In this document: positions 47,453 to 64,000 of the stretch, piece after piece
Position numbering within the stretch: position 1 is the first letter of the stretch
How the letters are laid out: each line of letters begins with the position of its first letter
Source: Vibrio pelagius
Lineage (GTDB): Bacteria; Pseudomonadota; Gammaproteobacteria; Enterobacterales; Vibrionaceae
Reading direction: 5' to 3'
NCBI RefSeq assembly: GCF_024347575.1
Contig: NZ_AP025503.1
Coordinates: forward strand, 806,001-870,000
Length of the DNA stretch: 64,000 nucleotides
Notes under the pieces: generated by a model
The model's input: only the letters and a program-made list of their open reading frames with translations
The model's database searches: none
Told to the model about the DNA's origin: nothing
Position numbers and translations under genes: made by a program

Positions 47453-47917
47453 TTACAGTTTCTCATCGGCAATCATTTGAGTCGCTTCTTGAGCTGTCTT
47501 CTTGTCAAATAAGATGTCCATCATCGCTTTGATGCGTTCCATATCATCGCCGAACTTAGATAAGTTGGCACTATTTGGCGCTTTAAACTCAACGTTACCG
47601 ACGCGCTTTTGGCCTTGGTAAGCTGAGATCTTGGCGTCTGCGACGAAGGTTCTAAAATCCCAACTCCAGCGAGAGACATAGTCTAAGGTGACTTCTTCAG
47701 GCTTGTGTTCAGAGCCATCTGTGACAACCTTACACTTCACTTGGTTGTTCAAACACCAGTCAAGCATAGAATCAAGAAACACAGAACGTGTCTTGGTGTC
47801 TTCTACAATCGTGACGTTTTCAATACTGTTTGCGTCTGGCAGAGCGTTGCCTGAGTATTTAGGCGCGCTACAACCAGCCAGTAGTGCAACGGCGAATAGG
47901 ATTAGGGCGTTTTTCAT
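47453..47917 (-). CDS. Small lipoprotein (Sbal_3080-like), last gene of the aryl-polyene operon
   Basis: The 154-residue product has a lipoprotein signal (MKNALILFAVALLAGCSAPKY). The mature part has a Cys pair (WCLNNQVKCKV), a YVSRWSWDFRTFVADAKISAY stretch and a helical C-terminal tail. It resembles the Sbal_3080 family lipoproteins. The function is unknown. It is 8 bp after apeR on the same strand, just before the operon terminator, so it may belong to pigment export or be a passenger gene. Confidence 0.72.
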   Translation of the reverse strand: MKNALILFAVALLAGCSAPKYSGNALPDANSIENVTIVEDTKTRSVFLDSMLDWCLNNQVKCKVVTDGSEHKPEEVTLDYVSRWSWDFRTFVADAKISAYQGQKRVGNVEFKAPNSANLSKFGDDMERIKAMMDILFDKKTAQEATQMIADEKL

Positions 47918-47925
47918 TATGGCTC

Positions 47926-49149
47926 CTAGATTTTCTTAAAGATGATAGAGGTGTTGATACCGCCAAAGGCAAAGTTGTTGCTCATTAGGTATTTAACATC
48001 CAATTCGCGACCAGAGCCCGTGATGTAATCCAGTTTACCGCACTGTTCATCCACATTTTCAAGGTTAAGCGTTGGACTGAACCAACCGCTATGCATCATT
48101 TCTAGGCTGAGCCATGCTTCAATCGCACCACACGCGCCTAGTGTATGACCAAAGTAACTCTTGAGAGAGCTGATTGGCACTTCACCGAAGATGTTCGCTG
48201 TTGCATTACTCTCGGCAATGTCACCTTTCTCTGTCGCGGTGCCGTGTGCTGAAACATAACCAATTTTGTCTGCAGCAAGGTCTGCATCTTTGAGGGCTTT
48301 TTCCATACAGATCTGCATGGTTTCCATTTGCGGCTGGGTTACGTGGGCGGCATCACAGTTGCTGGCAAAGCCGATGATTTCCGCATAAATCTTAGCGCCA
48401 CGTGCTACTGCATGCTCGTACTCTTCAAGAATCAGAGTACCAGCGCCTTCACCAATCACTAGGCCATCGCGTTCACTGTCGTATGGACTTGGTGATTTCT
48501 TGGGTGTGTCGTTTTTCAAACTGGTTGCAAAAAGGGTATCGAACACCGCAGATTCTGTTGGGCAAAGCTCTTCACCACCACCTGCAACCATCACAGTTTG
48601 GTAGCCGTGCTTGATCGCTTCATAAGCGTAGCCGATGGCTTGGCTTCCGGACGTACATGCACTGCTGGTGGGAATAACACGACCACGAAGTCCGAAGAAC
48701 AGACCCACGTTAACTGCAGCTGTGTGCGGCATCATCTGTACGTATGTGGTAGCTGTAATTGCTCGTGTCGATTTCTCATTCAGCATCACACCAAACGCAC
48801 CAACTGCATCAGTACTGCCGGTTGAAGAGCCGTAAGCAATACCAGTTTCACCATTGGTTAATACGTCATGCCCAATTAAGCCAGCTTGCTCAAGAGCATT
48901 CTCGGTCGCGACCGTTGCTAGGCGAGATACACGACCCATGCCACGAACTTGCTTGCGCTTGTAGTGCTTTGGCAGTTGGAAATCGTCAATTGGTGCAGCG
49001 AGTTTGGTGTTGAGGCCGTCATATTGCTCAAAGCTTGGCATGTACTGAGTCGCGTTCTCGCACGCTTTTAGTTTTGGTTCGATATCTTGCCAGTTGTTGC
49101 CAAAGGCTGTAACGCCTGACATTCCAGTAACGACTACACGGCGGGTCAT
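47926..49149 (-). CDS. apeR: ApeR, beta-ketoacyl-ACP synthase of aryl-polyene synthesis
   Basis: FabF-like condensing enzyme. The 407-residue protein has nucleophile C165 in PTSSACTSGSQAIGYA, and the two catalytic His in VSAHGTATEKGD and YFGHTLGACGA. In the aryl-polyene system this KS is separate from the main KS/CLF pair and is thought to take part in early or starter elongation. It overlaps apeQ by 4 bases. Lettering follows the Xenorhabdus ape scheme as I recall it. Confidence 0.88.
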   Translation of the reverse strand: MTRRVVVTGMSGVTAFGNNWQDIEPKLKACENATQYMPSFEQYDGLNTKLAAPIDDFQLPKHYKRKQVRGMGRVSRLATVATENALEQAGLIGHDVLTNGETGIAYGSSTGSTDAVGAFGVMLNEKSTRAITATTYVQMMPHTAAVNVGLFFGLRGRVIPTSSACTSGSQAIGYAYEAIKHGYQTVMVAGGGEELCPTESAVFDTLFATSLKNDTPKKSPSPYDSERDGLVIGEGAGTLILEEYEHAVARGAKIYAEIIGFASNCDAAHVTQPQMETMQICMEKALKDADLAADKIGYVSAHGTATEKGDIAESNATANIFGEVPISSLKSYFGHTLGACGAIEAWLSLEMMHSGWFSPTLNLENVDEQCGKLDYITGSGRELDVKYLMSNNFAFGGINTSIIFKKI

Positions 49150-49871
49150 ACTAGACCTCCATTTACAGAGATCACCTGACGCGTGACATAAGCGGCGATA
49201 TCAGACATGAGGTAGCTCACCAAGCCTGCGACTTCTTCCGGCTCGCCCATGCGACGTAGTGGAACTTGTGGTAGCGCGTGCTCTTTCACATGATCATCAA
49301 CCATACCTGTATCAATCAGACCTGGAGCGACACAGTTCACGGTAATCTTGCGTTTTGCCAGTTCAAGGGCGAGCGATTTGGTTGCACCAATAACACCCGC
49401 TTTCGCAGCACTGTAGTTAGTCTGACCGCGGTTTCCCATGATGCCAGAGACAGACGCTAGAGTGACAATTCGGCCACCTTTACGTTTTTGAACCATCGGC
49501 ATCACGCATGGGTGAAGTACGTTGTAGAAGCTATCTAGGTTAGTATGGATAACGCCATCCCACTCTTCTTCTGTCATGGCAGGGAAAGCCGTGTCACGAG
49601 TAATTCCCGCATTGTTTACCACACCGTAGTATGCACCGTGTTCTGCAATATCTGCTTCAAGTGTCTCTCGGCACTGTTCACGATTACTGATATCAAACTG
49701 AATCAGACGGCCTGAGCCCCCTTCTGATTCAATTTGCTCTAGAGTCTCTTGAGCACCCTGCTTGTCACCCATATAGTGAACAGCAATGTGAAAGTCATCT
49801 TTGGCAAGTTGAATAGCAATGGCCTTACCAATGCCTTTGCTGGCACCGGTGACTAATACTTGGCGAGTCAT
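49146..49871 (-). CDS. apeQ: ApeQ, 3-ketoacyl-ACP reductase
   Basis: FabG-like SDR that reduces the 3-keto group in each elongation round. The start at 49871 (MTRQVLVTGASKGIGKAIA) has GAGGAA upstream and overlaps apeP by 4 bases (ATGA); a longer frame to 49937 is rejected. The product is 241 residues with TGASKGIG, NNAG and the catalytic YSAAK. Close to FabG in size, but placed inside the pigment operon. Confidence 0.9.
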   Translation of the reverse strand: MTRQVLVTGASKGIGKAIAIQLAKDDFHIAVHYMGDKQGAQETLEQIESEGGSGRLIQFDISNREQCRETLEADIAEHGAYYGVVNNAGITRDTAFPAMTEEEWDGVIHTNLDSFYNVLHPCVMPMVQKRKGGRIVTLASVSGIMGNRGQTNYSAAKAGVIGATKSLALELAKRKITVNCVAPGLIDTGMVDDHVKEHALPQVPLRRMGEPEEVAGLVSYLMSDIAAYVTRQVISVNGGLV

Positions 49872-50332
49872 GACTGATTCCTCGTTTTCATTTCTTGTAA
49901 TTTTTGTTCTGTTGGCACGTAAACATTGAGTTGACACTGAGCCACCAACTCTCCTTGGTGCTCTACTTTTGATGTGAACACCGCCATGCCGTTATCTTCC
50001 ATCAATTGTTCTGCATAGATATCTAAGGTTTGTCCCTTGGTAAAATGGTCGCAAAGCGATTTGTATCGACGCGAACCTAAAAGAAAACCGATGGGAGGCT
50101 GCTCGCCTTGATTCAATGCATGATACCCAGACCATGCAGCGACAGACTGCGCCATAAACTCAATGCCAACATATGCGGGCATGGTTTGAGATTCTGAGTC
50201 GTAGAATAGATGATGTTCACCAATATCTACCTGGCAGTGAATCGCTTGTTCTTCAATCTTGATCGCTCTGTCGATAAGAATCATCGGATCGTCGTGGGGA
50301 AGAAGTTGGTCTACCGAAGGGATATTAGTCAT
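49868..50332 (-). CDS. apeP: ApeP, hotdog-fold dehydratase subunit
   Basis: 154-residue hotdog protein with LLPHDDPMILIDRAI and MPAYVGIEFMAQSVAAWSGYHA, typical of the FabA/FabZ-like family placed in aryl-polyene clusters. In the characterised system ApeI and ApeP work together as the dehydratase that creates the conjugated double bonds. It overlaps apeO by 8 bases and apeQ by 4. Confidence 0.87.
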   Translation of the reverse strand: MTNIPSVDQLLPHDDPMILIDRAIKIEEQAIHCQVDIGEHHLFYDSESQTMPAYVGIEFMAQSVAAWSGYHALNQGEQPPIGFLLGSRRYKSLCDHFTKGQTLDIYAEQLMEDNGMAVFTSKVEHQGELVAQCQLNVYVPTEQKLQEMKTRNQS

Positions 50333-51503
50333 TTACTACACCAAAAATAAGGCTAATGTTGTTTCCACCGAAGGCAAACGAGTTGCTTAAGATGTTTTTT
50401 GATTTGAGCTTTTGGTAACAGTCTACCAAATCAATATCGATATCTTCAGCTTTATCCTGACATTTTTGTAAGGGAAGAGATAAATCGAAACTAAGGATAT
50501 GCCATGCGATGGCGGCCTCGACTGCGCTGGCTGCTCCGAGAGTATGGCCGGTAAGTGGCTTGGTTGAGCTCACTGGCACTTTGTTTGGAAAGACGCGCGA
50601 GATAGCTTTGCTTTCCATTGAGTCATTGAGCGGCGTCGCTGTGCCATGCGCATTGACATAGCCAATCTGTTCTGGCTCTAGGTCGGCATCACGAAGTGCA
50701 TTTCGCATCGCTTGCTCTGCTCCATTACCTTCAGGGTGCGGTGCAGAAATGTGGTGAGCGTCAGAGCTATCGCCGCAACCGAGAAGCGCGACGGATGGCT
50801 GTTTCAACTTATCTTTACTTAGCAACATGAAGGCCGCTGCCTCACCGATATTGATGCCTTTACGTTGCGCACTGAACGGTTGGCAATGCTCGGTAGATAA
50901 GGCCTCTAAGCCATGAAAGCCGTTTAAGGTTAGTTTGCATAGGGTATCGACACCGCCAACAATGACAGCATCGACCATTCCTGAGTTGAGCAGTCGCTTG
51001 GCACTCAAAAACACACGGCCACTTGAAGAGCAGGCGGTAGAGATAGCGTAATTTGGGCCTTGCAGGTCGTAATAGTGACTCACGAATTCGCTGATATTAC
51101 CAAGCTCTTGTTTAGAGTAGTGGTATGACTGTGGAAATTGTCCATTTTTCAATTTCTCGGTGAACGCGAGCTCACCATCTGAAATGCCGGATGTACTTGT
51201 CCCTATAATAACGGCAACTCGGTCATGACCATATTTGGCTTTAGCTTGCTCGATCTCTGACTCTATTTGCGACAACGCAGACAAAGCAAGACGATTGTTA
51301 CGTGAGTTGTACTCCTCGAAAGGTGCTTGGATGCTCGGAAGCTCACCGTCAACTCGCCCGACGACTGTTGGCTGTCCATCATTTAATAGATCGAGTGCTT
51401 CCACCATATTTGAGCCAACACCACTTTGTAGGCGCTGGTGAATATCATTGTGATTAGAACCCAAAGCGGAGTGAAAACCACAGGCATGAATGTAAATCGT
51501 CAT
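50325..51503 (-). CDS. apeO: ApeO, main ketosynthase (KS) of the aryl-polyene machine
   Basis: 392-residue FabF-like condensing enzyme with C158 in AISTACSSSGRVF, His in VNAHGTATPLND and His in PLTGHTLGAASAVEAA. In known systems ApeO pairs with the inactive homologue ApeC (chain-length factor) to extend the polyene with malonyl units. It overlaps apeN by 4 bases and apeP by 8, indicating tightly coupled translation. Confidence 0.88.
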   Translation of the reverse strand: MTIYIHACGFHSALGSNHNDIHQRLQSGVGSNMVEALDLLNDGQPTVVGRVDGELPSIQAPFEEYNSRNNRLALSALSQIESEIEQAKAKYGHDRVAVIIGTSTSGISDGELAFTEKLKNGQFPQSYHYSKQELGNISEFVSHYYDLQGPNYAISTACSSSGRVFLSAKRLLNSGMVDAVIVGGVDTLCKLTLNGFHGLEALSTEHCQPFSAQRKGINIGEAAAFMLLSKDKLKQPSVALLGCGDSSDAHHISAPHPEGNGAEQAMRNALRDADLEPEQIGYVNAHGTATPLNDSMESKAISRVFPNKVPVSSTKPLTGHTLGAASAVEAAIAWHILSFDLSLPLQKCQDKAEDIDIDLVDCYQKLKSKNILSNSFAFGGNNISLIFGVVND

Positions 51504-52156
51504 AGTGTTTCGTTCTTCGTTGCTGGAGTGGTTAGGTTTGAACTCAGGGTTTGGATATTGATACGATACCCCTGTGTGAGGTGCTCAAACACAATGTCTC
51601 CCTCTACTTTCTGTTGGTTATCTGTCGCAAAGTAGCGGATTTCGATGACCGGTGTATTGCTCTTATCGTAGACGACACGTTGGTTGGCTGTTTCAACAAT
51701 GTGCCAACCTATGTCGCTCAACGAACTTTGCCATGCCTCGATTGGCCATAGCGTTAGCATGAGATTGAACAGTACTTGCTCTGGTGCTGGCAGGGTGTCA
51801 TCGAGCCCAGTTAATACCTGCGTATCGATTGTATCATCTTGATACTGAAGAGATAAAATTCGGGTGCCCCAAGAGGAGAAGCCTGCGAGCACTACCTTGT
51901 TTTGATTAACTTGCAGTTGTACCGGTAGCTGTTGTTGTGTTTCACCCCAGCTCGCCGTAATCAGTTGGCTTGTGGTCAATTCATAGCCAAGCTTTGCTGG
52001 TTTAGGAAGCGCAACTTGTGTGTTTTCATCAATAGTGACCAAGGCTTGGCGAGTATTTTGCGGACCAAGAGAGCAAGCACTTAACGTTGCAGCAAGCACA
52101 AAGGCTACTCCGATCTTTATCGAATAGCGCCATGTTTTAAGGTGTGCTAGAACCAT
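51500..52156 (-). CDS. apeN: ApeN, DUF3261-type lipoprotein
   Basis: 218 residues with an N-terminal signal and lipobox TLSACSLG, then a single DUF3261-like domain. A conserved VFEHLTQGYRINIQTL closes the protein. The role is unknown but it is regularly found with the MMPL exporter and LolA-like carrier, so it likely helps move the pigment-lipid to the outer membrane. It shares one base with the apeM stop (TAATG). Confidence 0.8.
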   Translation of the reverse strand: MVLAHLKTWRYSIKIGVAFVLAATLSACSLGPQNTRQALVTIDENTQVALPKPAKLGYELTTSQLITASWGETQQQLPVQLQVNQNKVVLAGFSSWGTRILSLQYQDDTIDTQVLTGLDDTLPAPEQVLFNLMLTLWPIEAWQSSLSDIGWHIVETANQRVVYDKSNTPVIEIRYFATDNQQKVEGDIVFEHLTQGYRINIQTLSSNLTTPATKNETL

Positions 52157-54516
52157 TATTTTGTCCTTCTTTTCGCTGAATTACCTTCAGCTCCTATCGC
52201 CATTGGAGAGAGCAACCACGCCACAAATATACCAGTGAGCACGGTGACACCAAAGCTATGGATAGCGTGAGTCTGGCTTAGGGATAGCAACCCAAAGGAG
52301 AGAAGCGTTGTGATGCCGGAGAGCGATATCGCGAGTAGGGTGCCAAGCGACTTCTTCTGTTCGGCAAAAAATAGCGTGTAATCGATACCGATACCTAAGA
52401 TCAGTATTAGGCCGAGTAGATTGAAGAGATTGATGCTTGAGCCTACAGCGGCTGTAACGCCAAGCCCGGCAGCACCCGCAATGATAGATGGCAGCAGCAT
52501 GATGATGGCTCTTTTAGGGCCATAGCGCCAGCCTAGAACCAGCCCAATACCTGCCAGTGCTACCAGCAGTAGCTCCAGTACTTTGACGCGATACTCAGAA
52601 AATAGTGAAGAGATTTCATCCGCTTTGTTGAGGTACTTAATCCCTAAAAGCTGAGTCTCTTTATTGTTTAACCACGCCTCAAAACGCTGTGAGTCATCAA
52701 TATCTTGGAGAAGCACGATTGCGGCTTGTTGACCATTGATGGGGTCAAGCCACAATGAACGCATGGGTTCTGACACTGGTGAGCGTAAGAAGTCGTTCAC
52801 CGTGATCTCTCGATACACAGGGAGTTCAGGAAAGCTCGCCCAGCCCAGTCCACTCTGTAGAGGTTGGCTTTGATTGCGATACAATTCACTGACGAGTTGG
52901 TAGTTGAGCTTTTGCTCATGAGTCGTTGGCAGGAGCTGGTGGATACTTCGATAACCAGAAAGCGTCCCGTTGCTGACCAGTTGATCCAGCTCGTCGCCTA
53001 GTCGATGCAGTGATTTTAGCAGAGCTTGATCGTTGCCTGCGGTGATTAGCAGCATCGACTGACTATTGCCAATCCCTGATACTGATGTAATGGTCTGCTC
53101 TTGCGCCTTCAATGTCTCAGGCATCGCCTGCAACTGACGAATGTCATCAAGGTATTGAATTTGGGTCAATGCGACGATGCTAGCCGCAGCAATGAGCGTT
53201 GGCAAGGCGTAGCGCAGGGCAGGCTTGCTCCAAAGCTGGAGCCATGCGTTCAGCAGGGAAGCAAGAGGTAGCGGTCGGTCTTGACTTGGTCGCTTCGCTA
53301 ATATCGGATACCAACAAACTACAGTCGTGTAGGCCGCAAACAGACCAATAGACGAAAACAACGCCAATTGTTGTAGGCCGGGGAACGGAGCAATCAGTAA
53401 CCCTAAGTAACCGATTAAGCTGGTCACTAAACCAAGACTTATCGCCATTAAAATATGTTTTAGCCCTTTGTCACTTTGCCAGCGAGACCCGGCAACTAGC
53501 CGGTCAGTAAGATAGTGGAAAGAGTAATCAATAGAGACACCGATTAAGCTCGCGCCGAACACTAAGCTGAATAGGTGCACTTGGCCAAAAATCACGACCG
53601 TGCTAGCCAATGCCACCAACAATCCGGTGCCGATCGAGATTAATGATAAGGCGAGGGGAAGGGCGCTGCGGAATGTCATCCAAATCAAAATAATGACCCC
53701 AGCTAAGGAGCCAAGGCCAATGGTATTGATTTCAGATTTAGCACTCTTGGTCCCATAGTCGGCATAAAACACGACGCCAGTATGTGCAATTTCAACGCCG
53801 AACTCTTGCTCGATATTTTGCTCAATCGACTCTATGAGCGGCAGCTTCTCTTGAGTATTCAGACTGTAAGGAGAACCAGCCAAAGTAGCGGTGATCAACA
53901 CATGAGTGCGCCCTGCGGACTGCGTTGTTAGGTAGTGCTCTTGCAGGGTGAAGTTGGTGCTGGTCTTGCCGACTTCACCAATGTAATCACGGAACAGCAG
54001 AAATGGATCCAGTGACAGCTCTGTCGCTGTGACTCCTGAAAACGGGTTATAGAGAGACTGGATTACGTATTGAACTTGGTTCTCTGGCGCATGCTCTAAG
54101 GTCTGCTTCTGCTGTTCTGTGAGGAGCTGAGCTCTATGCTGAAAATAGAAATCACTCCATTGATTTTGCGTGTTGGCACTGACCTTCCCCTGAACTTTAG
54201 AAAACAGCGGGGAGTCGTTGGCAAGCATGTCACGATTTAAACCACGTTCAAAACTTGCGGCAGCAGCGATCGCTTGCTTAGCCGATTCGGAAGAGACGAG
54301 AAAAAGTACCTGCTCGCTCATTGAGTTAGAAAGTTGCTCGAAAGCCTGCTCTGCCAAAGGATCTTGCTGATTCTTTGGAAGTAACTTCAGAATGTTGGTT
54401 TCAATCGGCACTGCAGAAGAAAAAGCGAATTGTTTGATTAACAATCCGCTAAAAAAAATGACGAGGATTAGCCAGGTTAAGGCAAATTTAGAGTTGGAAC
54501 TGCTGTGCTTCGTCAT
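52156..54516 (-). CDS. apeM: ApeM, MMPL/RND-type exporter
   Basis: Start at 54516 (MTKHSSSNSKFALTWLILVIFF) gives 786 residues and overlaps apeL by 29 bases; a start at 54603 would run deep into apeL. The layout is RND-like in two halves: TM1, a large periplasmic loop, five TM segments (including VSIDYSFHYL), then again TM7, a loop and five TM segments (including GIDYTLFFAEQKKS). Such MMPL proteins move lipids or hydrophobic products. Here it probably exports the aryl-polyene lipid. Confidence 0.87.
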   Translation of the reverse strand: MTKHSSSNSKFALTWLILVIFFSGLLIKQFAFSSAVPIETNILKLLPKNQQDPLAEQAFEQLSNSMSEQVLFLVSSESAKQAIAAAASFERGLNRDMLANDSPLFSKVQGKVSANTQNQWSDFYFQHRAQLLTEQQKQTLEHAPENQVQYVIQSLYNPFSGVTATELSLDPFLLFRDYIGEVGKTSTNFTLQEHYLTTQSAGRTHVLITATLAGSPYSLNTQEKLPLIESIEQNIEQEFGVEIAHTGVVFYADYGTKSAKSEINTIGLGSLAGVIILIWMTFRSALPLALSLISIGTGLLVALASTVVIFGQVHLFSLVFGASLIGVSIDYSFHYLTDRLVAGSRWQSDKGLKHILMAISLGLVTSLIGYLGLLIAPFPGLQQLALFSSIGLFAAYTTVVCWYPILAKRPSQDRPLPLASLLNAWLQLWSKPALRYALPTLIAAASIVALTQIQYLDDIRQLQAMPETLKAQEQTITSVSGIGNSQSMLLITAGNDQALLKSLHRLGDELDQLVSNGTLSGYRSIHQLLPTTHEQKLNYQLVSELYRNQSQPLQSGLGWASFPELPVYREITVNDFLRSPVSEPMRSLWLDPINGQQAAIVLLQDIDDSQRFEAWLNNKETQLLGIKYLNKADEISSLFSEYRVKVLELLLVALAGIGLVLGWRYGPKRAIIMLLPSIIAGAAGLGVTAAVGSSINLFNLLGLILILGIGIDYTLFFAEQKKSLGTLLAISLSGITTLLSFGLLSLSQTHAIHSFGVTVLTGIFVAWLLSPMAIGAEGNSAKRRTK

Positions 54517-55165
54517 CCGTAAGTCTTTGCGGTTGGTGGTTGAAGTTAGAGAATTCGATGAGCGTACTATCGCCTCGGATCTCCTTGAGCTCGATGCGTT
54601 CAATGTCGCTCTTGCCTTGCAAAATTATGCGCTCAAAAACAGCATTCATCGGTGCATGCTTGGGTGTGAGTGAGAGAGTCCAACTTGTCGTTGCGTCGCT
54701 TGGTGAAAAATTCAACGAAAATTGCTCTGTCAGTTTTTGAGTATCGCCATGAAACACCGAAAGAAAAATATGGCTGAAGTAAAAGGCCATTGGGTTCTCT
54801 TTGTCAGTGATCACTTGTGCAGGTTGTTTACCAAAGCGTTGGCTAAGCTTATTGTCAGTCAATACTAAATGCACAGGGAAAGGTGTGGTTTGGTTCCACA
54901 ATAGACCATTGGCTTTATCAAGCAGAAAGGAGCCTTGCGATAACAGCGGCTGATCGAACATTTCCATCGTGCGAGTTTGAGTGAAGTCGCCACGGATGAT
55001 GGATTGGTGACTCAGTGTTGTCTGTAAATCAGCAAGTGTCTTTACTTCTCCTTTTTCTGAGTCAGCCCAAACATGAGAAGCAACGAACAGGCTCAGAAAG
55101 CAGCACAACAGCACTCGGGAGAAGGTTGCTAATGAGGTCAGCGAACGAAAGCTAAGCAGATTCAT
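54488..55165 (-). CDS. apeL: ApeL, LolA-like periplasmic carrier
   Basis: The start at 55165 (MNLLSFRSL) has GAGAAG upstream and gives 225 residues; it overlaps apeK by 14 bases. A signal peptide (VLLCCFLSLFVASHVWA) is followed by a LolA-fold domain: IIRGDFTQTRTMEMFDQPLLSQGSF, then LLWNQTTPFP and IFLSVFHGD. By analogy with LolA it may shuttle a hydrophobic cargo across the periplasm, handing off from ApeM. Confidence 0.85.
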   Translation of the reverse strand: MNLLSFRSLTSLATFSRVLLCCFLSLFVASHVWADSEKGEVKTLADLQTTLSHQSIIRGDFTQTRTMEMFDQPLLSQGSFLLDKANGLLWNQTTPFPVHLVLTDNKLSQRFGKQPAQVITDKENPMAFYFSHIFLSVFHGDTQKLTEQFSLNFSPSDATTSWTLSLTPKHAPMNAVFERIILQGKSDIERIELKEIRGDSTLIEFSNFNHQPQRLTDDEAQQFQL

Positions 55166-55678: not shown

Positions 55679-57223
55679 TTAATACAGTGTCCAGTGCTGC
55701 TGTTGAATACGCTGAATAAACAGACGCAGATCGCTTTCCAATGGGCGGTCTTCAACAACAAACTCAAACTCTTGCATCACTTGATCACGGATCTGCTTCA
55801 AGTTGTCGCTCATGTGGTGCTCGTCGAGCTCATTAGCACGCTTACGTAGCTCCAGAGCTTGCGTTGCTGCTAAGAGTGAAGCGGCGGCAACTTGCTCAGT
55901 TAGCTCTAACACTCGCAAGCAATCACGAGCGGCGATCGTACCCATGCTGACTTTGTCTTGGTTATGGCATTCGGTCGAGCGAGAGAACACACTTGCTGGC
56001 ATGGTGTGTTTTAGCGCTTCTGCCGTCCAAGCTGAGATACCAATCTGAACTGCTTTAAAGCCGTGGTTGATTGGCTTACGCTCACCTTGAGCACCCGTTA
56101 GGTTGAACGGTAGACCATTGTTGAATTTGTAATCCATCAACTGCGCCATTTGACGATCAAGCAGATCGGCAAGGTTAGCGATTGCCGTTTTTAACGTATC
56201 CATAGCCATTGCGATGTGACCACCGTAGAAGTGACCGCCATGCAGTACACGCTCGTTATCACCGTCGATGATTGGATTGTCGTTCGCGCTATTGAGCTCG
56301 TTCTCAATCATTTGACGTAACCACGGCAGTGAATCTTCCACTACACCGATAACGTGCGGTGCGCAGCGCAGTGAATAGCGATCTTGTAGGCGGTCGCTAT
56401 TGCGCGGCGGACGATCAGCTTGCAAGTCATCACGTAACCAAGCGGCAACCTGTTGCTGGCCAGGGTGAGGTTTCACTGCAAACAGCGCTTCGTCGAAGTG
56501 GAAGTCATTACCGTGCATGCCGACAGACACCATGGCGGTGATTTTAGTTGATAGCTGAGATAGGTACTCAGCACGCTTGTAGGCGATACAAGCAAGAGCC
56601 GTCATGACCGATGTCCCGTTCATCAGCGCTAAGCCTTCTTTTGGCTTCAGCTTAATCGGTGTAATGCCTAGTTCGTTGTATACATCGCTCGTTGGTCGCA
56701 CTTCACCCTTGTACAACACATCGCGTTCGCCAATGAGCGCAGCCGCTAGGTAGGAGAGTGGTGTTAAGTCACCGCTTGCACCTACAGATCCTTCTTGAGG
56801 AATGCGTGGTGCAATGTCATTGTTGATCAGAGTAACGATTTGGTTGAGCAAGTCATGGCTAACCCCTGACACGCCTTGGGATAGTGAACAAAGGCGTGTC
56901 GCCAATACCGCACGCGCTTGATCATGAGTGAGTGTCTCACCAAGGCCACAACCGTGGAAGCGAGTCAGGTGCAGAGGTAATTCATCCACCAAGTTAGGTG
57001 GGATAGCAACGGTACACGAATCACCGTAGCCAGTCGTCACACCATAAATGACTCCTTCTTCTTTCAAAAGGCGTTCAAGAAATGCCACGCCTCGGTCAAT
57101 CTTAGAGGTGAAGGCTGGGTCGGTGTTCATGCTTGCGTTAGCACCTTGAGAGATCGCGACAACGTCTTCGATCGTTAGGCGTTCTGCACCAAATGTGATG
57201 CTATTTTGAGTCTTTTTCGTCAT
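55679..57223 (-). CDS. Aromatic amino-acid ammonia lyase (HAL/TAL family), MIO enzyme
   Basis: 514 residues with the MIO-forming triad A149-S150-G151 in GSVGASGDLTPLSYL, the catalytic loop YGVTTGYGDSC, and NDNPIIDGDNERVLHGGHFYG. MIO lyases remove ammonia from His, Tyr or Phe. In this cluster a cinnamate-type starter (from Tyr or Phe) is likely. However, the selectivity pair at residues 89-90 is F-H, not the H-L of tyrosine lyases, F-L of phenylalanine lyases or S-H of histidine lyases. No hutU or other hut gene is nearby. It overlaps apeJ by 23 bases. Confidence 0.85.
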   Translation of the reverse strand: MTKKTQNSITFGAERLTIEDVVAISQGANASMNTDPAFTSKIDRGVAFLERLLKEEGVIYGVTTGYGDSCTVAIPPNLVDELPLHLTRFHGCGLGETLTHDQARAVLATRLCSLSQGVSGVSHDLLNQIVTLINNDIAPRIPQEGSVGASGDLTPLSYLAAALIGERDVLYKGEVRPTSDVYNELGITPIKLKPKEGLALMNGTSVMTALACIAYKRAEYLSQLSTKITAMVSVGMHGNDFHFDEALFAVKPHPGQQQVAAWLRDDLQADRPPRNSDRLQDRYSLRCAPHVIGVVEDSLPWLRQMIENELNSANDNPIIDGDNERVLHGGHFYGGHIAMAMDTLKTAIANLADLLDRQMAQLMDYKFNNGLPFNLTGAQGERKPINHGFKAVQIGISAWTAEALKHTMPASVFSRSTECHNQDKVSMGTIAARDCLRVLELTEQVAAASLLAATQALELRKRANELDEHHMSDNLKQIRDQVMQEFEFVVEDRPLESDLRLFIQRIQQQHWTLY

Positions 57224-58949
57224 GGTGCTGATTGCTCAATGTCCAAAAATTAAAAAAGTTATACCATTGAAGGGGGGCCTTCAATGTGTAGTGCTGAAGT
57301 CGGTCAGCGTACTGCTGAACCACTTGTTGCAGTGTCTGTTCACGCGTCTTTCTTGGTAAGACTATCTTGTCGCTAAAATGTTCAAAGTAGACGTTAAAAT
57401 GAGGCTTTTTACTGCTATCGTCACGAAGCCCAAAGAGCAAGAATACTGGGGCTTTAAGAACAGAAGCTAACATAAATGGCCCCTGTGGGAATGGAGCTTG
57501 TTGTCCTAAAAACTCCGCCCATACTGAGCGGCTCTCTTTGCTGGTGGAGGTACGATCGCCAACAATCACGATCCACTCACCTTGTTCAAGTTTTTGTTGA
57601 AGCAAGATAGCGGTATCTGGTCCCATTGAGCTGACTTGGATAAGGTTTAAGTCTGAGTTTGGATTTACCGCTTTCATTACCGAATTAAAGCGTTCGGCAT
57701 GCTCCGTAAAGACCAGTGCGTTGATCTTAATATTTGAGTGTCTGCGACCGAGTGCGCGACAGAGTTCGATATTACCAAGATGCGAGCCTAGGATAACCAC
57801 GCCTTGCTCATTGTTGACCATATTTTCAAACTGATCTTGGCCATGAATCGTTAGGTTCTCAACCGAGAAATCTCCTTTCCAAGCGGCGAGTTTGTCCAAC
57901 ATAGTGTGACCAAACGAAAGCAAATGATGGTAGCTGGTTAGGTTACTTGGCAGATCAATATTGTGTTGCTCGGCATACAGCTTGAGTGTGTGTAGATAAT
58001 GCTCAGATGCTTCGCGGGCGCGTTTTCCTGTTAGGTGGTAGTAGCGCATCACGCCTTTGAGGATCAGATTGAAGACACCGCGTCCAAGCAGGGTGTAGAT
58101 CATCAACAGCAGTTTGATACCCAGCACTGTGCCGCGCTCTTGAGTGCGTGACCAGTGGGGTTGATTGCTGCCGCTTTTTTCTGTTTTGTTGAAGTGGCGG
58201 GCGATCAGTTTCGGAGCGCGTGGTAGCATGCCGAAAAACAGTCGAGTATGCATCCAGCTGATTTTTACGTTGTCCCACAGCGCATCGAAGTGCGAGATAC
58301 CGCCCTCTGGATAGATCACGCGAGTGTCGATAAAATCAATATCACAACCTTCCCAGTACAGACGCACCAACACTTCGATATCGAAATCCATACGCGAGCC
58401 AACATCGTACTTGTTGAGTACAGATTGTGTTGCAGTAATCGGGTAGGCGCGGAAGCCACACATGCTGTCTTTGATTGAGAAAGACAGGGTCTCTATCCAT
58501 ACCCAAATATGCGTTGCGTAACGCCCGTACAGACGTGATTTAGGCACACTGTCATCATAGACAGGCTGCCCAGAAATAAGGTGGGTTGGTGCTGCTTGCG
58601 ATTTTTCAAGAAGTTTAGGTAGAGCCTCTAGATCGTGTTGACCGTCAGCATCAATCTGAATGGCATGGCTGAAACCCAGCTGTTGAGCTCGTTCAATTCC
58701 CGCTTTGACTGCGCCGCCTTTGCCTTGGTTCTCGATTAGAGTCACTAAAGTTACGTTATCAAGCTCAGCCAATGGCTTTAGGTGCTGCTTGGTTTCGGCA
58801 TTGCTCCCGTCATCGACCAAAATAATGGGTAGTGCATAGCTTTTAAGGGATTCAATAACCGCTGCCACTGTCGAGCCGTGGTTATAGCAGGGAATCAAAA
58901 AACAGGCTTGGTAGCTTGTTTGGGCTTCAATGTCCGCCACGCTATTCAC
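57201..58949 (-). CDS. apeJ: ApeJ, glycosyltransferase-2 / acyltransferase fusion
   Basis: 582 residues in two parts. Residues about 14-240 are a GT2 domain (FLIPCYNHGSTVAAVIESL, ILVDDGSN, QIDADGQHD, DSMCGFRAYP). Residues about 330-565 are an LpxL/HtrB-like acyltransferase (ILGSHLGNIELCRALGRR, WIVIVGDRTS, FPQGPFMLA), joined by a short hydrophobic stretch. It may build the sugar-lipid to which the polyene is attached. It overlaps apeI by 8 bases. Confidence 0.87.
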   Translation of the reverse strand: MNSVADIEAQTSYQACFLIPCYNHGSTVAAVIESLKSYALPIILVDDGSNAETKQHLKPLAELDNVTLVTLIENQGKGGAVKAGIERAQQLGFSHAIQIDADGQHDLEALPKLLEKSQAAPTHLISGQPVYDDSVPKSRLYGRYATHIWVWIETLSFSIKDSMCGFRAYPITATQSVLNKYDVGSRMDFDIEVLVRLYWEGCDIDFIDTRVIYPEGGISHFDALWDNVKISWMHTRLFFGMLPRAPKLIARHFNKTEKSGSNQPHWSRTQERGTVLGIKLLLMIYTLLGRGVFNLILKGVMRYYHLTGKRAREASEHYLHTLKLYAEQHNIDLPSNLTSYHHLLSFGHTMLDKLAAWKGDFSVENLTIHGQDQFENMVNNEQGVVILGSHLGNIELCRALGRRHSNIKINALVFTEHAERFNSVMKAVNPNSDLNLIQVSSMGPDTAILLQQKLEQGEWIVIVGDRTSTSKESRSVWAEFLGQQAPFPQGPFMLASVLKAPVFLLFGLRDDSSKKPHFNVYFEHFSDKIVLPRKTREQTLQQVVQQYADRLQHYTLKAPLQWYNFFNFWTLSNQHHDEKDSK

Positions 58950-59304
58950 TTTTTTCTCCTAGCTTCATTTTGCCTGAAGAGTGCGTGCAATTGCCGTTAT
59001 CTGAGGTGTAGCTAAACGCCAGTTTTTGTTTATCTGAGTCCCATTTTAGTGCCAATGTGACCGTCGCATCGGGCAAAACGGGTTCTTGGAACTTGATCAC
59101 TTCCATACCTTTAAAGTGAGGCGGTACGCCCAACTCTTGGACTGCATAGGTGAGTGCCCAATCAATCTGAGTGACGCCGGGCAGGATAGGAAAACCCTTA
59201 AAGTGCCCTTTAAAGTCAGTTAAGTCGGCATCCACCTTAAGCGTGAGTGTCGACTCATTTGTTTGGGTCTCAATCTGTAAAATGGTTGGCTTTCTTTTGT
59301 CCAT
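58942..59304 (-). CDS. apeI: ApeI, hotdog-fold 3-hydroxyacyl-ACP dehydratase
   Basis: 120 residues, FabZ/FabA-like, with GHFKGFPILPGVTQIDWALTYA carrying the H-x3-G-x-P-x2-PGV signature. It acts with ApeP in the characterised aryl-polyene pathway. It is 46 bp after apeH. Confidence 0.88.
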   Translation of the reverse strand: MDKRKPTILQIETQTNESTLTLKVDADLTDFKGHFKGFPILPGVTQIDWALTYAVQELGVPPHFKGMEVIKFQEPVLPDATVTLALKWDSDKQKLAFSYTSDNGNCTHSSGKMKLGEKSE

Positions 59305-59350: not shown

Positions 59351-60730
59351 TTATTGCGTGTTTATGATTTTTTCTATTTGTGGTGAGAGCCGCTTGCCTT
59401 GGCTATTGAGCGGGATCTCTTCAACTACTCTAAAACGCCTTGGTATCGCAATCGGTTCAAGCCACTTTCTAAGCTCATTGCGTAATAGTAACCAAAACTT
59501 GCCTTTACCGACACTGTTAAGCGTCTGTTTTCCTTCATCGGAAAGCACGATCACAGAAGCGAGAATCAAACGATTTGGCTCTTCAAATGGGATAACGGCG
59601 CATTCATTAATCCACGACAGCTGCTCAAGGCGCTTTTCTACTTCAACCAGAGAGATACGTTTCTCTTCAATCTTGATGATTCGGTCAGTACGACCTTTGA
59701 GAATAAATTGGTTGTCAGAAACCATTTCACACTCATCAGCCGTTTGGTACCAGTTGTCTCGGTCAATATAAGGTGACAGTAATTTGATGCAATTCTCTGG
59801 GTTTAATTCAGCTTGGATACATGAAAAGAGTTGCCAAGGGGTTTGAGCATCTAGCTGTTGACGGTAAGCGATTCCGCCCGTTTCTGTGCTGCCAAAAACT
59901 TCGATGGGCAGTTCACCAAATAGAGCGCGAGCTTGTTGGGCGGCTGCTAATGGCAGAGGACCACCAGACGAAAAAACGCCAACCAGAGGTTTCGCACTTT
60001 GCTCTTCAGAAAGACGCTTCAAGAGAGCTGGGCTGCTTACCAATACCATTTGTGAGTCGGCATGCGAAACGATTTGCTCTGGATACTCCAAATTGAAACG
60101 AGAAAAAGGTACTGACGAGCAGAGCGGCCATAAGATACGAAATAGCAAACCATAGATATGCTGATGCGAAACTGTGCTGTGAACACGGCTGCCTGTCAGC
60201 ATCGATTGCCAGTTTTTACTGAGCTCGGCAATCTCAATATCAAGCTGCTCTAGTGTTTTGTGTATCGCTTTCGGTGTGCCGCTTGACCCTGAAGTAAATA
60301 GAATCAGTTCTATTGCGCTAAGATCGATTGACTCATTGATCGTATCGCCTGCTTGAGTATCAAAGAGTTGGTTCGATAGGAGCAGAGTGTTGGTGTTGCT
60401 CACCACTTGAATACTTTCATCAACCAACAGCAGGTCATATTCACTACTGAGCTCAGATAGCGCTTCCGGTTGATAATTACCGGGCAGGACAATCTGCTTG
60501 TTTGATAAAGCACAAGCCATGAATGCGACTGTAAAAAAGTAGCTGTCTTGAGTACAGATAGCGGTACGTTGCGTCGATGCATCGGATAATAGACGGCAAA
60601 GTTTCGCTACATCATTTTGAAACTCTTGCCAGCTGATCTGTGATTTGTCATCAAAACAGAGAACGGAATCTAGAGATCGATTCACCAGGAATAGCTGAGC
60701 GAGAGAAGTATAGCGAGGGTGTTTGTTCAT
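59351..60730 (-). CDS. apeH: ApeH, AMP-forming acyl-ACP ligase
   Basis: 459-residue ANL-family enzyme with the P-loop-like FTSGSSGTPKAIHKTL, the FGSTETGGIAYRQ block and the hinge ILKGRTDRIIKIEEKRI. In the aryl-polyene pathway it activates the aromatic acid starter and loads it on an ACP. It sits 4 bp after apeG. It would use the product of the ammonia lyase or a 4-hydroxybenzoate-like acid. Confidence 0.87.
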   Translation of the reverse strand: MNKHPRYTSLAQLFLVNRSLDSVLCFDDKSQISWQEFQNDVAKLCRLLSDASTQRTAICTQDSYFFTVAFMACALSNKQIVLPGNYQPEALSELSSEYDLLLVDESIQVVSNTNTLLLSNQLFDTQAGDTINESIDLSAIELILFTSGSSGTPKAIHKTLEQLDIEIAELSKNWQSMLTGSRVHSTVSHQHIYGLLFRILWPLCSSVPFSRFNLEYPEQIVSHADSQMVLVSSPALLKRLSEEQSAKPLVGVFSSGGPLPLAAAQQARALFGELPIEVFGSTETGGIAYRQQLDAQTPWQLFSCIQAELNPENCIKLLSPYIDRDNWYQTADECEMVSDNQFILKGRTDRIIKIEEKRISLVEVEKRLEQLSWINECAVIPFEEPNRLILASVIVLSDEGKQTLNSVGKGKFWLLLRNELRKWLEPIAIPRRFRVVEEIPLNSQGKRLSPQIEKIINTQ

Positions 60731-60734
60731 AATT

Positions 60735-61292
60735 TTAGTTTTGACGTACGCGTTGTCGGATTACCCACTCGACGGCAAACAAAATACCAGCTAGTAGATA
60801 ACTGATTAAACCGTTGTAAAGTGTCCACAACTCAAGAGATTGGAAACAAGTATAGAGTGCGATGGCACCATTGAGCACAAAGAAGCCACACCAAACTTTG
60901 GTTACTTTTCTTGTGTAGTCGATGCCGCTTTGTGGTAGCTCTGGCTCTTGTAATCGAGCGAGGCGTTCAATGATCGTTTGAGGCTGAGTGAGGCTAAGTG
61001 CAAACACTGTGAACATACACAGATTGACGACAACCGGATAGTAGGTGAGCCAACCGTGCTGTTTAAATATCATGCCTAAAAGCAGTAGCAGTAAACCAGC
61101 ACCACCACTCATCCACGCAAGGTGTTTAAGTTCTTTGATCTTAGCCTGACCACCGGTCACGATTCGTACCAGAAACACGGTGGCCAACACTCCTCCTACC
61201 GCTTGCAGGCCAAACTTATTGAGCCCAAAGTAGACGGCAATTGGGTAAGAGAAGATGATCAGTGCCGACAATAGGGTCAGCAGGGGGCGCAC
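60735..61292 (-). CDS. apeG: ApeG, COG4648-type membrane protein
   Basis: 185 residues with about five to six membrane segments and short polar loops, beginning MRPLLTLLSALIIFSYPIAVYFGLNKFG. It matches the unnamed membrane protein usual in aryl-polyene clusters. The role is unknown. It shares one base with the apeF stop. Confidence 0.8.
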   Translation of the reverse strand: MRPLLTLLSALIIFSYPIAVYFGLNKFGLQAVGGVLATVFLVRIVTGGQAKIKELKHLAWMSGGAGLLLLLLGMIFKQHGWLTYYPVVVNLCMFTVFALSLTQPQTIIERLARLQEPELPQSGIDYTRKVTKVWCGFFVLNGAIALYTCFQSLELWTLYNGLISYLLAGILFAVEWVIRQRVRQN

Positions 61293-61549
61293 TATGCGTC
61301 CTTGAGAAGTTCAACGACAGACTCAACCACATCATTGACGGTGCGTACTGTTTTGAACTCTTCAGGCTTGATTTTTTTGCCCGTTACATTTTGCAAGTGA
61401 ACAACCAGATCCACAGCATCAATGCTATCAAGGTCAAGATCTTGATAAAGATGTGCTTCTGGTGTGATTTCTTCAGCATCTAGCTCGAATAGCTCGATAA
61501 GCGCATCTTTAACCTGATTAAATACTTCTTGTTGGTTTGCTTGTGTCAT
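61292..61549 (-). CDS. apeF: ApeF, acyl carrier protein
   Basis: 85 residues with phosphopantetheine site S42 in YQDLDLDSIDAVDLVVHL. Highly acidic N-terminal helix. One of two ACPs in tandem; in known systems one carries the starter and the other the growing chain, but which is which cannot be told from sequence alone. Confidence 0.9.
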   Translation of the reverse strand: MTQANQQEVFNQVKDALIELFELDAEEITPEAHLYQDLDLDSIDAVDLVVHLQNVTGKKIKPEEFKTVRTVNDVVESVVELLKDA

Positions 61550-61561
61550 AAGGAAATCTTT

Positions 61562-61822
61562 CTACTTGTTCGTTTGCGATGTGATGTAGTTTGCTAGATT
61601 AGCAACAGAAGCGAAGTGCTGACGTGTGTTTGAATCATCAGCGTCAATCACAATGTTGTATTTCTTCTTAATTGCCAGGCCAAGCTCAAGTGCATCAATC
61701 GAGTCTAGACCTAAACCATCACCAAATAGTGGAGCTTCAGTTTCAATTTCATCAATGCTCATATCTTCAAGGTTTAAAGCATCAATGATCAGCTGTTTTA
61801 GTTCGTTATGTAATGTTTCCAC
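61562..61822 (-). CDS. apeE: ApeE, acyl carrier protein
   Basis: 86 residues with phosphopantetheine site S41 in GDGLGLDSIDALELGLAI. It is 12 bp before apeF, and the two are clearly different in sequence, so they are not a recent duplication. Confidence 0.9.
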   Translation of the reverse strand: METLHNELKQLIIDALNLEDMSIDEIETEAPLFGDGLGLDSIDALELGLAIKKKYNIVIDADDSNTRQHFASVANLANYITSQTNK

Positions 61823-61905
61823 TTTGGCCTACTTGTCTATATACATGCGAGTCTGTGCGATCGAATAGAAGCACATTTACTCAAATCAAAAGGGTGATGA
61901 GAGGC

Positions 61906-62676
61906 TTATTGTTCTTGCTCGGGAAAAATGTTTTCCGCAAGATGCCGGTTTAAGCGCCTTGCCGCAGAAGTTAGATTATTTGAGCTCTCAATAAACGGTG
62001 TCACCTCTATTTTACCTTTGACTGAGACATGAAAAAAGGGTTTCGTTGAAGGAACTTGGTACCACTTCTTCTCTTTTGTGAGAAATGAGGGCGTGACCGT
62101 GATGTGAATGACACGTAGATCCGTCTCTGTTCGAGTGGCGATTTGCGCGGCACCACGCTGTAAAGAAGGAGTGACGCCGGGCGTAGTGCGCGTTCCCTCT
62201 GGAAATATCAACAACACGTTGCCACGAGAGAAACGCTCTTCACAACGTTCAAGAAGGTCATCAGGCGCTTGGTTAGGGATATAACCAGCGGCCTTTACAA
62301 TTCGCTTCATGAACAGGTTTTCCCAAATCGCGGCCTTAACTAGACAATCACACTGTGGCAGTTGAGATGCGATAAGGACATAATCAATTAAACTTGGGTG
62401 GTTAGCGACAATGATGCAGTTGCGATCTTGCTGTAGCGTTTCAATTCCATCAATGCGGTAGTCAATGGCGCCAGTGAATTTCATGATTCGGCAGAACGCA
62501 TTAAACGTGAGACAAATTAAACGCTGTGCTTTGAGTTCACGTTGGATGGTATTGGATGTGGTGATCGCAATCAGCGGCAGAATGATAAAACTCAGAACCA
62601 AACCGCCCAAGCCAAAAATCGAAAAGCACAGCCCAGTGGCGAATACTCGCCAGTATTGATTCAGTTTATTCACCAT
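61906..62676 (-). CDS. apeD: ApeD, PlsC-like acyltransferase
   Basis: 256 residues with an N-terminal membrane segment and the LPLAT motifs NHPSLIDYVLIAS (H-x4-D) and LIFPEGTRTTPG. It probably acylates the lipid carrier or glycerol-type acceptor of the pigment. It overlaps apeC by 11 bases, and 83 bp separate it from apeE. Confidence 0.87.
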   Translation of the reverse strand: MVNKLNQYWRVFATGLCFSIFGLGGLVLSFIILPLIAITTSNTIQRELKAQRLICLTFNAFCRIMKFTGAIDYRIDGIETLQQDRNCIIVANHPSLIDYVLIASQLPQCDCLVKAAIWENLFMKRIVKAAGYIPNQAPDDLLERCEERFSRGNVLLIFPEGTRTTPGVTPSLQRGAAQIATRTETDLRVIHITVTPSFLTKEKKWYQVPSTKPFFHVSVKGKIEVTPFIESSNNLTSAARRLNRHLAENIFPEQEQ

Positions 62677-63403
62677 GTTTATTCCACAACCAAGTTTGAC
62701 GTTTACCTGGGATTGTCCAATTGGATTGTTTTTTTAGGTAGTGCTGGAGAAACAGCAAACCTTGTGGGAGCGCGACTTCCTGTAACTCAATATCTGAGGT
62801 CTCTCTGCTGAGAGAGTATCCAGTTCCTTGGCTCAACACCAATCCTAGTGCGTAGTCAGAATAAACCTGAGTTTCGTATTCTTTATATAGCTCAGGTAGA
62901 GGTTGATCGAAATCGATGACCATCACTTTATGCTCAGGATGCTGACTCAAATAGAGATAGGCTTCAATGAGTGCATTATGGAATGTATCCACACCAGAAG
63001 CGATCGAGCTCAGAGGAAGCGGCGCTTTCACGGCAATTGTTGTCAGCCCGGCAGCGGTGTTGTGCACGGATTGAGAAAAGGCCATTGGAGACGCGTCTTC
63101 ACCCTCTAAAATTGATTTAACCAATGCGACGGTTCGGTGCAGTTCGCCATGACGGCTGGCAAAGACTAAGAAATGGATATCGTTTTCTTCAAGTAGTGTT
63201 AGTGCGGTTTGCACAGCAAGCTTGCTTTGAACACTCATGCGGCGACGCATCATCGGAGGAATTGTTTTGAAGTCAGTGGTCGTCTCTTCTGGCCACTGCA
63301 TTATTGCACTCCATGCCTGCCAATCCTGTTGAGTCGTGAGCCCAGGAGAATTTGCACACCATTTTTCAATATTGAACGACATTAAATGAGATTGATTTGA
63401 CAT
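62666..63403 (-). CDS. apeC: ApeC, ketosynthase-like chain-length factor
   Basis: 245 residues resembling a truncated ketosynthase N-terminal half (Ketoacyl-synt_2 type), with FSQSVHNTAAGLTTIA where active KS enzymes have their Cys. There is no nucleophilic Cys, fitting a partner that shapes ApeO rather than a catalyst. It is the first gene of the 16-kb minus-strand operon. The start is uncertain: MSNQ at 63403 or MSFNIEKW at 63382; neither has a clear ribosome site, and homologues tend to begin near the second. Confidence 0.82.
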   Translation of the reverse strand: MSNQSHLMSFNIEKWCANSPGLTTQQDWQAWSAIMQWPEETTTDFKTIPPMMRRRMSVQSKLAVQTALTLLEENDIHFLVFASRHGELHRTVALVKSILEGEDASPMAFSQSVHNTAAGLTTIAVKAPLPLSSIASGVDTFHNALIEAYLYLSQHPEHKVMVIDFDQPLPELYKEYETQVYSDYALGLVLSQGTGYSLSRETSDIELQEVALPQGLLFLQHYLKKQSNWTIPGKRQTWLWNKHGE

Positions 63404-63474
63404 AGAGTATTGATTTGAATTGGGTCTAATTAAATACTATGCGAGTTAAACACAAATATAGGTAAGGAAATACA

Positions 63475-63864
63475 ATGAAATTATTCAAAATTGCCGCTTC
63501 AATGTTATTCGTTTTGGTTCTCGCAGGCTGTGGTCGTGTACAGCCAGTTATGAACGTTGAGGATACTCCAGTTGCACATAATCTTCAAAGTAAACAGGTA
63601 AGATCAGCGATTTATGAGTCGGCAGTTGATCGCGGCTGGTTGGTTTCTGAGGTGAAGCCTGGTCTTATTCGAGCAGAGTTATATGTTCGCTCTCACCATG
63701 CGGTTGTTGAAATTCCTTACAGCGATAAATTCTATTCGATTCTGTATGTCGAGTCAGAGAACTTAAAATATGACGACGGTGAAATTCATCGCAACTACAA
63801 CCGTTGGGTCAATAACCTGAACGTTGATATTAAACGAAAGCTAGCGCAAATGGCCGCTGAATAG
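63475..63864 (+). CDS. Small lipoprotein, divergent from apeC
   Basis: 129 residues with signal and lipobox VLAGCGRVQ. The mature part has SAIYESAVDRGW..EVKPGLIRAELYVRSHHAVVEIPYSDKFYSILY and NYNRWVNNLNVDIKRKL, a pattern of a small alpha-beta domain seen in other lipoproteins upstream of ape genes. It has an AAGGAA ribosome site. It probably corresponds to the first letter of the ape scheme; function unknown. Confidence 0.8.
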   Translation: MKLFKIAASMLFVLVLAGCGRVQPVMNVEDTPVAHNLQSKQVRSAIYESAVDRGWLVSEVKPGLIRAELYVRSHHAVVEIPYSDKFYSILYVESENLKYDDGEIHRNYNRWVNNLNVDIKRKLAQMAAE

Positions 63865-63892
63865 TTTTATAAAGAATAAGTTAAGGTTTTTT

Positions 63893-64000
63893 GTGTCCAA
63901 TTATAATTTAGATCCATTCAATGCACTTGAAGCAAAAACAGAGGCTCAGAAGCTCTCTTTCGCGCCGATAGTGTTCCACACTGCACGTACACTGCGTGAT
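63893..64000 (+). CDS. SAM-dependent methyltransferase of the aryl-polyene cluster (3' end outside window)
   Basis: GTG start at 63893 with AAGG 6 bases upstream. The 36 visible residues read VSNYNLDPFNALEAKTEAQK and then LSFAPIVFHTARTLRD. This is the N terminus typical of the dimerising methyltransferases beside aryl-polyene genes, probably ApeB, which methylates the aromatic head group. It is 28 bp after the lipoprotein gene. Only the N terminus is seen, so the call rests on pattern and context. Confidence 0.68.
   Translation, partial: MSNYNLDPFNALEAKTEAQKLSFAPIVFHTARTLRD

Follow-up and report, generated by a model that had tools for sequence, protein, structure and literature searches.

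Described aryl-polyene (APE) clusters include apeA to apeR of Escherichia coli and APE_Vf of Aliivibrio fischeri ES114. Heterologous expression of the latter showed that no further genes are required to make an APE (PMC8253772). In the characterised systems ApeH loads 4-hydroxybenzoate onto ApeE, ApeR and ApeO-ApeC extend the chain, ApeQ, ApeI and ApeP process it and ApeB methylates it. Anchoring by ApeD, ApeJ and ApeK and export by ApeG, ApeL, ApeM, ApeN and ApeA are proposals (PMC8253772, PMC8358021). For E. coli, 4-hydroxybenzoate is the proposed starter, and ApeR is the ketosynthase reported necessary for initiation (PMC8253772). Here we consider a locus at one end of a 64,000-nucleotide stretch of Vibrio pelagius DNA (GCF_024347575.1, contig NZ_AP025503.1; G000:C1:806001-870000 in our numbering), which we call the window. 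It comes from a genome of 4.96 Mb in 3 contigs. We argue that the locus is very probably a complete, functional-looking cluster of the Vibrio type for APE biosynthesis and export.

An earlier note, made from the letters of the window, had read an operon of 18 minus-strand genes here as a nearly complete APE cluster. All 18 are in the list of open reading frames (ORFs), tightly packed between 47453 and 63403 (Table 1). The note had most of them overlapping by 1-29 bases. With the starts we chose this holds for 11 of the 17 junctions between neighbours, but the remaining 6 are gaps of 4-83 bases. The starts of apeQ (49871), apeL (55165) and apeM (54516) were chosen by us; the upstream ORF starts look overlong, and the domain scans of these three genes used the longer ORFs. 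Genes were named by BLASTP against the 18 ape proteins of the E. coli cluster (L011), with the names of Table 1 in PMC8253772. Each of these proteins has one counterpart in the window and its adjoining DNA, at 30-72% identity, so the note was right about the type of gene set. Sixteen of the 18 minus-strand genes are apeC to apeR, gene for gene and in E. coli order. The order is kept throughout except for apeA and apeB. In E. coli these two precede apeC on the same strand, so the pair is inverted here: apeA adjoins apeC at 71 bases on the opposite strand, and apeB crosses the end of the window. The note had missed both apeA (63475-63864) and the start of apeB (63893), and "nearly complete" must be corrected, since no gene is missing when the DNA past the window edge is included. 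The idea of a missing methyltransferase, which came from the window alone, is ruled out because apeB is found past the edge. Pfam and NCBIfam results agree with the assigned names; apeA and the lipoprotein at the tail of the operon gave no Pfam match. Three proteins have no E. coli ape counterpart below E 0.1: an ammonia lyase, the tail lipoprotein and a flavin enzyme (L012:2970-4229) that comes directly after apeB in the divergent unit. The note had counted the lyase within the known ape set; it is present here but absent from the E. coli set.

What marks membership of the APE family was found gene by gene. There is a ketosynthase and chain-length factor pair, ApeO-ApeC, whose half-size second member is without an active cysteine. 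There is a second ketosynthase (ApeR), a ketoreductase (ApeQ) with the dehydratases ApeI and ApeP, two acyl carrier proteins (ACPs) with a ligase, ApeH, that is predicted from its sequence to activate the starter, a methyltransferase (ApeB, L012:1893-2960), and, for coupling to lipid and for export, the genes ApeD, G, J, K, L, M, N and A. The solved structures 6QSP and 7F28 are ApeO-ApeC complexes and 7F27 is an ApeR; the paper on the latter, AbApeR, takes 4EWG as an ApeR too (PMC8358021). The window's apeR matches 7F27 at 564 bits and 4EWG at 535 bits, with a FabF-type enzyme following at 263 bits. Only 6QSP_A and 7F28_B match apeO at E<=1e-70, and only 6QSP_B and 7F28_A match apeC at E<=1. 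The earlier note had named best matches to ordinary fatty-acid enzymes as one outcome that would speak against it. The nearest solved relatives of the ketosynthases are APE enzymes instead, so a set of ordinary fatty-acid genes is rejected. Both hotdog dehydratases listed by the note exceed their Pfam cut-offs, apeP as ApeP-like and apeI as ApeI-like, and the NCBIfam models that apeQ passes are FabG-type ketoreductases. ApeH matched nothing among the solved structures at E<=1e-15.

The cluster is also well kept. Our genus sample holds 118 genomes, the window's own included, and ApeC is found in 61 of them (E<=1e-3). Related stretches were fetched from 40 of the 60 other ApeC-bearing genomes. 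They were trimmed to about 20 kb in a fixed layout, and absences near their edges are weak evidence. Residue alignments combine these stretches with the window and so hold up to 41 sequences. The cysteines that the note had placed at C158 and C165 are those of apeO and apeR, each accompanied by two histidines; none of these residues varies among the 41 sequences. Across the ketosynthases, ACPs, ketoreductase and lyase the catalytic residues are invariant in the aligned clusters (40-41 sequences). The note's "Cys-less" chain-length factor is apeC. It has no conserved cysteine, as claimed (Cys stands in at most 4 of 41 sequences in every alignment column), but the protein does have one, C16. For the genes they hold, 39 of the 40 stretches are collinear with the window. 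The ratio of nonsynonymous to synonymous substitution rates (dN/dS) is 0-0.19 for twenty genes, computed against three relatives and only where dS is unsaturated, which shows purifying selection. Median identities over the 40 stretches are highest for apeQ (91.0), apeR (87.8) and the lyase (87.7%), and the fastest-drifting cluster genes are apeC (53.9) and apeN (50.2). Of the divergent unit, apeA was found in 30 of the 40 stretches and the flavin enzyme gene in 28. Our case for an APE cluster is therefore the eighteen counterparts in E. coli, the APE structures as nearest relatives, the ApeP and ApeI families, the invariant residues, the collinearity and the low dN/dS, and the note's interpretation gains support from the structure matches, the two families and the counterparts.

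By analogy with the characterised clusters one can assign each enzyme a probable role. ApeH would load an aryl carboxylate onto ApeE, and ApeR and ApeO-ApeC would elongate it with malonyl units carried on ApeF. Each round would be reduced by ApeQ and dehydrated by ApeI or ApeP, and with no enoyl reduction a conjugated polyene should result. ApeB would methylate the ring. Coupling of the polyene to a lipid would fall to ApeD and ApeJ, with ApeK, and its transport to the outer membrane to ApeG, L, M, N and A. The expected yellow pigment, its membrane anchoring and protection from oxidative stress are likewise drawn from characterised relatives (PMC8253772). The cluster is one more Vibrio member of a very widespread pigment family and a known type. 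The main question raised by this otherwise ordinary cluster is the substrate of the lyase. It is a clean, complete locus, and its lyase may bear on the source of the aryl starter in 61 of the 118 sampled genomes.

The ammonia lyase belongs firmly to the Vibrio form of the cluster and is under strong constraint. It lies in the operon between apeJ and apeK. Some lyase match is present in 104 of the 118 genomes at E<=1e-60, the weaker of these being mostly HutH-like, at 31-34% identity. Every one of the 61 ApeC genomes has the close type (64-100% identical), and so does G117, which is 79% complete and in which ApeC was not found. The lyase is at most 7.3 kb from apeC in 60 of the 61 genomes; G031 has the two genes on separate contigs. 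In the order sample of 295 genomes the lyase is present in 92 at E<=1e-120, and all 92 also carry PF13723. The two lie within 7.4 kb of each other in 88 of these; in three of the remaining four they are on separate contigs and in the last 23 kb apart. Against the three relatives the lyase has dN/dS of 0.020, 0.008 and 0.022 at dS 0.35, 0.85 and 2.21. One can imagine that its high identity reflects a recent import, but its dS lies between or near the values of apeJ and apeK and its dN is low. We reject this explanation, because a gene with the dS of its neighbours and a low dN/dS is constrained and not recently imported.

The residue pattern suggests that this lyase is neither a histidine ammonia lyase nor a textbook tyrosine ammonia lyase (TAL). 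Ala-Ser-Gly is the triad that forms the MIO (4-methylideneimidazole-5-one) group, and A149-S150-G151 is present in all 41 sequences. F89, H90 and E418 are also invariant in the 41 Vibrio lyases, and the C of the ECHNQD motif is replaced by S in 2 of them. A Ser-His pair at 89-90 and NQED near 420 serve histidine binding. The genome's own HutH, 31-33% identical, has S-H and NQED; the cluster lyase has F89-H90 and HNQD. Compared with RsTAL (2O6Y; 2O78 reads F in the same column) it has F at H89 and H at L90, with residue numbers partly as counted in the alignment. Since F stands in place of the His, we do not file the lyase as a TAL, yet it may still act on tyrosine. Among twenty sequences from the order (the window's lyase and 19 of the 76 other-genus genomes with a lyase), 17 have F and three have Y at position 89, and all share H90 and ECHNQD. 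Database labels disagree: among the 120 homologues listed, UniRef names some "tyrosine ammonia-lyase" and NCBI names others "histidine ammonia-lyase", and these are labels only. Among the matches listed from the open-licence PMC literature we found no assignment of a lyase from a Vibrio APE cluster.

We think it rather likely that the lyase supplies an arylacrylate starter, coumarate-like, from an aromatic amino acid and so feeds ApeH. By established chemistry, a single round of elongation turns 4-hydroxybenzoyl-ACP into a coumaroyl thioester. The lyase product would therefore enter the same series, joining the chain one round after 4-hydroxybenzoate. ApeH also matches the NCBIfam 4-coumarate ligase model, but we dismiss this as evidence for coumarate because E. 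coli ApeH matches the same model and both fall below its cut-off. We more tentatively suggest, at somewhat less than even chances, that there are two APE starter routes. The E. coli type would start from chorismate as 4-hydroxybenzoate. The Vibrio type, with other genera of the order, would start from an amino acid, converted by a lyase subfamily of its own with R-(F/Y)-H-G and ECHNQD. The pocket of this subfamily fits neither the RsTAL nor the histidine lyase pattern, so its members may act on phenylalanine or on a ring-modified tyrosine. If so, the head group would change or the first elongation would be bypassed.

Several observations weigh against our overall reading of the cluster and its starter in one part or another. 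In Pfam apeQ also scores against adh_short_C2, described as "enoyl-ACP reductase", at 192 bits. A single phosphopantetheinyl transferase was recognised in the genome, of AcpS size (PF01648), and 4PPT_N found nothing above its cut-off there, which bears on how ApeE and ApeF are activated. F89 and E418 of the lyase stand at RsTAL H89 and N432 (N432 as counted in the alignment), which argues against simple tyrosine selectivity; in RsTAL the exchange H89F is reported to change the substrate from tyrosine to phenylalanine (PMC9002059). UbiC, a source of 4-hydroxybenzoate, is encoded in the genome, so both starter routes are available. In the order 45 of the 137 genomes with PF13723 are without the lyase at E<=1e-120. 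Together with the proposed 4-hydroxybenzoate start in E. coli this makes the lyase dispensable for an APE as such. A last point concerns one related stretch with a reduced set, G061 (L070; G061:C1:350802-370801, genes at 3824-11646). It holds apeC, E, H, I, the lyase, K, O, P and Q, and no apeR, apeF, apeJ, methyltransferase or export gene was found in it. Its apeR match is apeO itself. The lyase frame is intact, and this retention fits a lyase that belongs with the chain-building core. However, only a 39-residue piece of apeD is left, so the cluster may be decaying and not a working minimal one. As an observation in its own right, it could be either a decaying cluster or the maker of a free polyene acid.

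The rival that survives best is that the starter comes from chorismate only, as 4-hydroxybenzoate via UbiC, and that the lyase serves otherwise, for instance as an aminomutase or in a side reaction. UbiC itself speaks for this, as does apeR, the reported initiation enzyme, which is highly conserved and kept in 39 of the 40 stretches. The lyase's matches also include aminomutase structures, among them tyrosine aminomutases and the aminomutase AdmH (3UNV). This scenario must explain why every ApeC genome of the genus sample keeps the lyase, inside the operon and at dN/dS 0.008-0.022, and we consider it unlikely. Less probable still is a halogenated, xanthomonadin-like polyene, in which the flavin enzyme past the window would halogenate the aryl ring. 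Xanthomonadin clusters contain a halogenase gene (PMC3691225). The flavin enzyme matches halogenases of the CmlS, ChlB4 and PltA type. GxGxxG, WxWxIP and KxGxxF are motifs of such flavin enzymes; the first is in the window's copy, and WxWxIP and the Lys of KxGxxF are in 28 of 29 aligned sequences, with one gap. However, its best solved match is 3NIX at 377 bits, a flavoprotein without an assigned reaction, and it scores 144.5 against a cut-off of 900 for the NCBIfam halogenase model. It was also not found in 12 of the 61 ApeC genomes at E<=1e-40, so we regard halogenation as improbable. A flexirubin-type product, the polyene ester of a dialkylresorcinol known from Bacteroidota, is rejected as very improbable: the lyase, the methyltransferase (492 bits against a FlxJ-family cut-off of 560) and the LolA2-like carrier match models of flexirubin clusters, all below the NCBIfam cut-offs, but the best match to DarB in the genome is 29.8 bits against a cut-off of 550 (no DarA search was made), and the anchoring genes ApeD and ApeJ are of E. 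coli type.

Returning to the APE cluster, some neighbouring and accessory features should be recorded. The tail lipoprotein gene lies 8 bases behind apeR and is found in 4 of the 40 related stretches, so it is not core. Genome-wide (E<=1e-40), the flavin enzyme has a match in 49 of the 61 genomes with ApeC and in a single genome that lacks it. In G015 (L078) it is missing locally and a copy lies on another contig. In G033 (L068) it is an 89-residue piece and is absent from the genome-wide list at this threshold. Beyond it are flagellar and chemotaxis-like genes, from translations read by eye only. Two stretches, L073 (G013) and L074 (G043), keep the order with far more divergent proteins (apeC 34-36%, lyase 64-65%), and no apeA or flavin gene was found in either stretch. 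A scan of named genomes for ApeC gave three loci, all Vibrio: V. fortis at 85% and others at 76% and 55%. gltX is inside 10 of the 40 stretches, and most stretches stop too close there for its absence to count. An apeR-like match is present in 1940 of 5426 E. coli genomes, a count that we use for no conclusion. Promoter and terminator scans found fewer sites than in shuffled sequence and are therefore uninformative; the inverted repeat behind the operon, read directly, was not listed by the terminator scan. Elsewhere in the window there is an array of 20 tRNA genes on the minus strand (18377-21065): 10 Leu(TAG), 6 Gln(TTG) and 4 Met(CAT).

Table 1. The APE locus in window coordinates. Functions are predictions from the matches given; percentages are amino acid identities to the E. 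coli protein.
Feature	Predicted product	Position	Strand	Support
tail gene	Sbal_3080-family lipoprotein, accessory	47453..47917	-	NF040519 137.5 bits, above cut-off
apeR	second ketosynthase, C165/H302/H335	47926..49149	-	7F27 (AbApeR); 72%
apeQ	ketoreductase, Y153/K157 in 41/41	49146..49871	-	TIGR01831 FabG2 423 bits, above cut-off; 70%
apeP	hotdog dehydratase	49868..50332	-	PF22817 102.7 bits
apeO	elongating ketosynthase, C158/H286/H320	50325..51503	-	best solved match 6QSP_A
apeN	DUF3261 (LolB-like) protein	51500..52156	-	PF11659; 32%
apeM	RND/MMPL exporter	52156..54516	-	PF03176; 34%
apeL	LolA-like periplasmic carrier	54488..55165	-	PF03548; 41%
apeK	thioesterase	55152..55646	-	PF13279; 49%
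lyase	MIO-type aromatic amino acid ammonia lyase, 514 aa	55679..57223	-	PF00221 551 bits
apeJ	glycosyltransferase family 2 + lipid A-type acyltransferase	57201..58949	-	PF00535, PF03279; 48%
apeI	hotdog dehydratase	58942..59304	-	PF22818 78.8 bits
apeH	AMP-forming ligase, for aryl starter	59351..60730	-	PF00501; 34%
apeG	membrane protein, COG4648-like per E. coli gene label	60735..61292	-	50% over 118 aa
apeF	acyl carrier protein 2	61292..61549	-	PF00550; 62%; Ser42 invariant 40/40
apeE	acyl carrier protein 1	61562..61822	-	PF00550; 60%; Ser41 invariant 41/41
apeD	lysophospholipid-type acyltransferase	61906..62676	-	PF01553; 46%
apeC	half-size chain-length factor	62666..63403	-	PF13723 229.8 bits; 37%
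apeA	small ApeA-type (lipoprotein) protein, divergent from apeC	63475..63864	+	39% over 126 aa
apeB, 5' end	methyltransferase	63893..64000; whole gene L012:1893-2960	+	52%
inverted repeat	11 bp, candidate two-way terminator	47402..47426		77-base gap between convergent gltX and ape ends

How does the locus stand beside known systems? The arylpolyene cluster of Vibrio europaeus is reported as 85-90% similar to APE_Vf by antiSMASH (a 2026 Vibrio pangenome paper, PMC13249269). The andrimid cluster likewise carries the label "arylpolyene-NRPS" (PMC5209532), so an antiSMASH label alone is no proof; our gene-level comparisons bear out the arylpolyene label for this locus. The closest solved relatives of its enzymes are the APE enzymes of Xenorhabdus doucetiae and Acinetobacter baumannii (6QSP, 7F28 and 7F27; PMC8358021), a likeness at the level of structure matches. 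The flexirubin cluster of Chitinophaga pinensis derives its starter from tyrosine with the FlxA lyase, whose preference for tyrosine is about 1000-fold, and with a 4-coumarate ligase (PMC3992019). Our locus resembles it in having an ammonia lyase, but it is unlike it in that there is no DarB above the cut-off and its lyase scores 362 against a FlxA cut-off of 700 bits. Relative to APE_Ec of E. coli (described for CFT073), our locus adds the ammonia lyase, the flavin enzyme and the tail lipoprotein, and its apeA-apeB pair is transcribed divergently.

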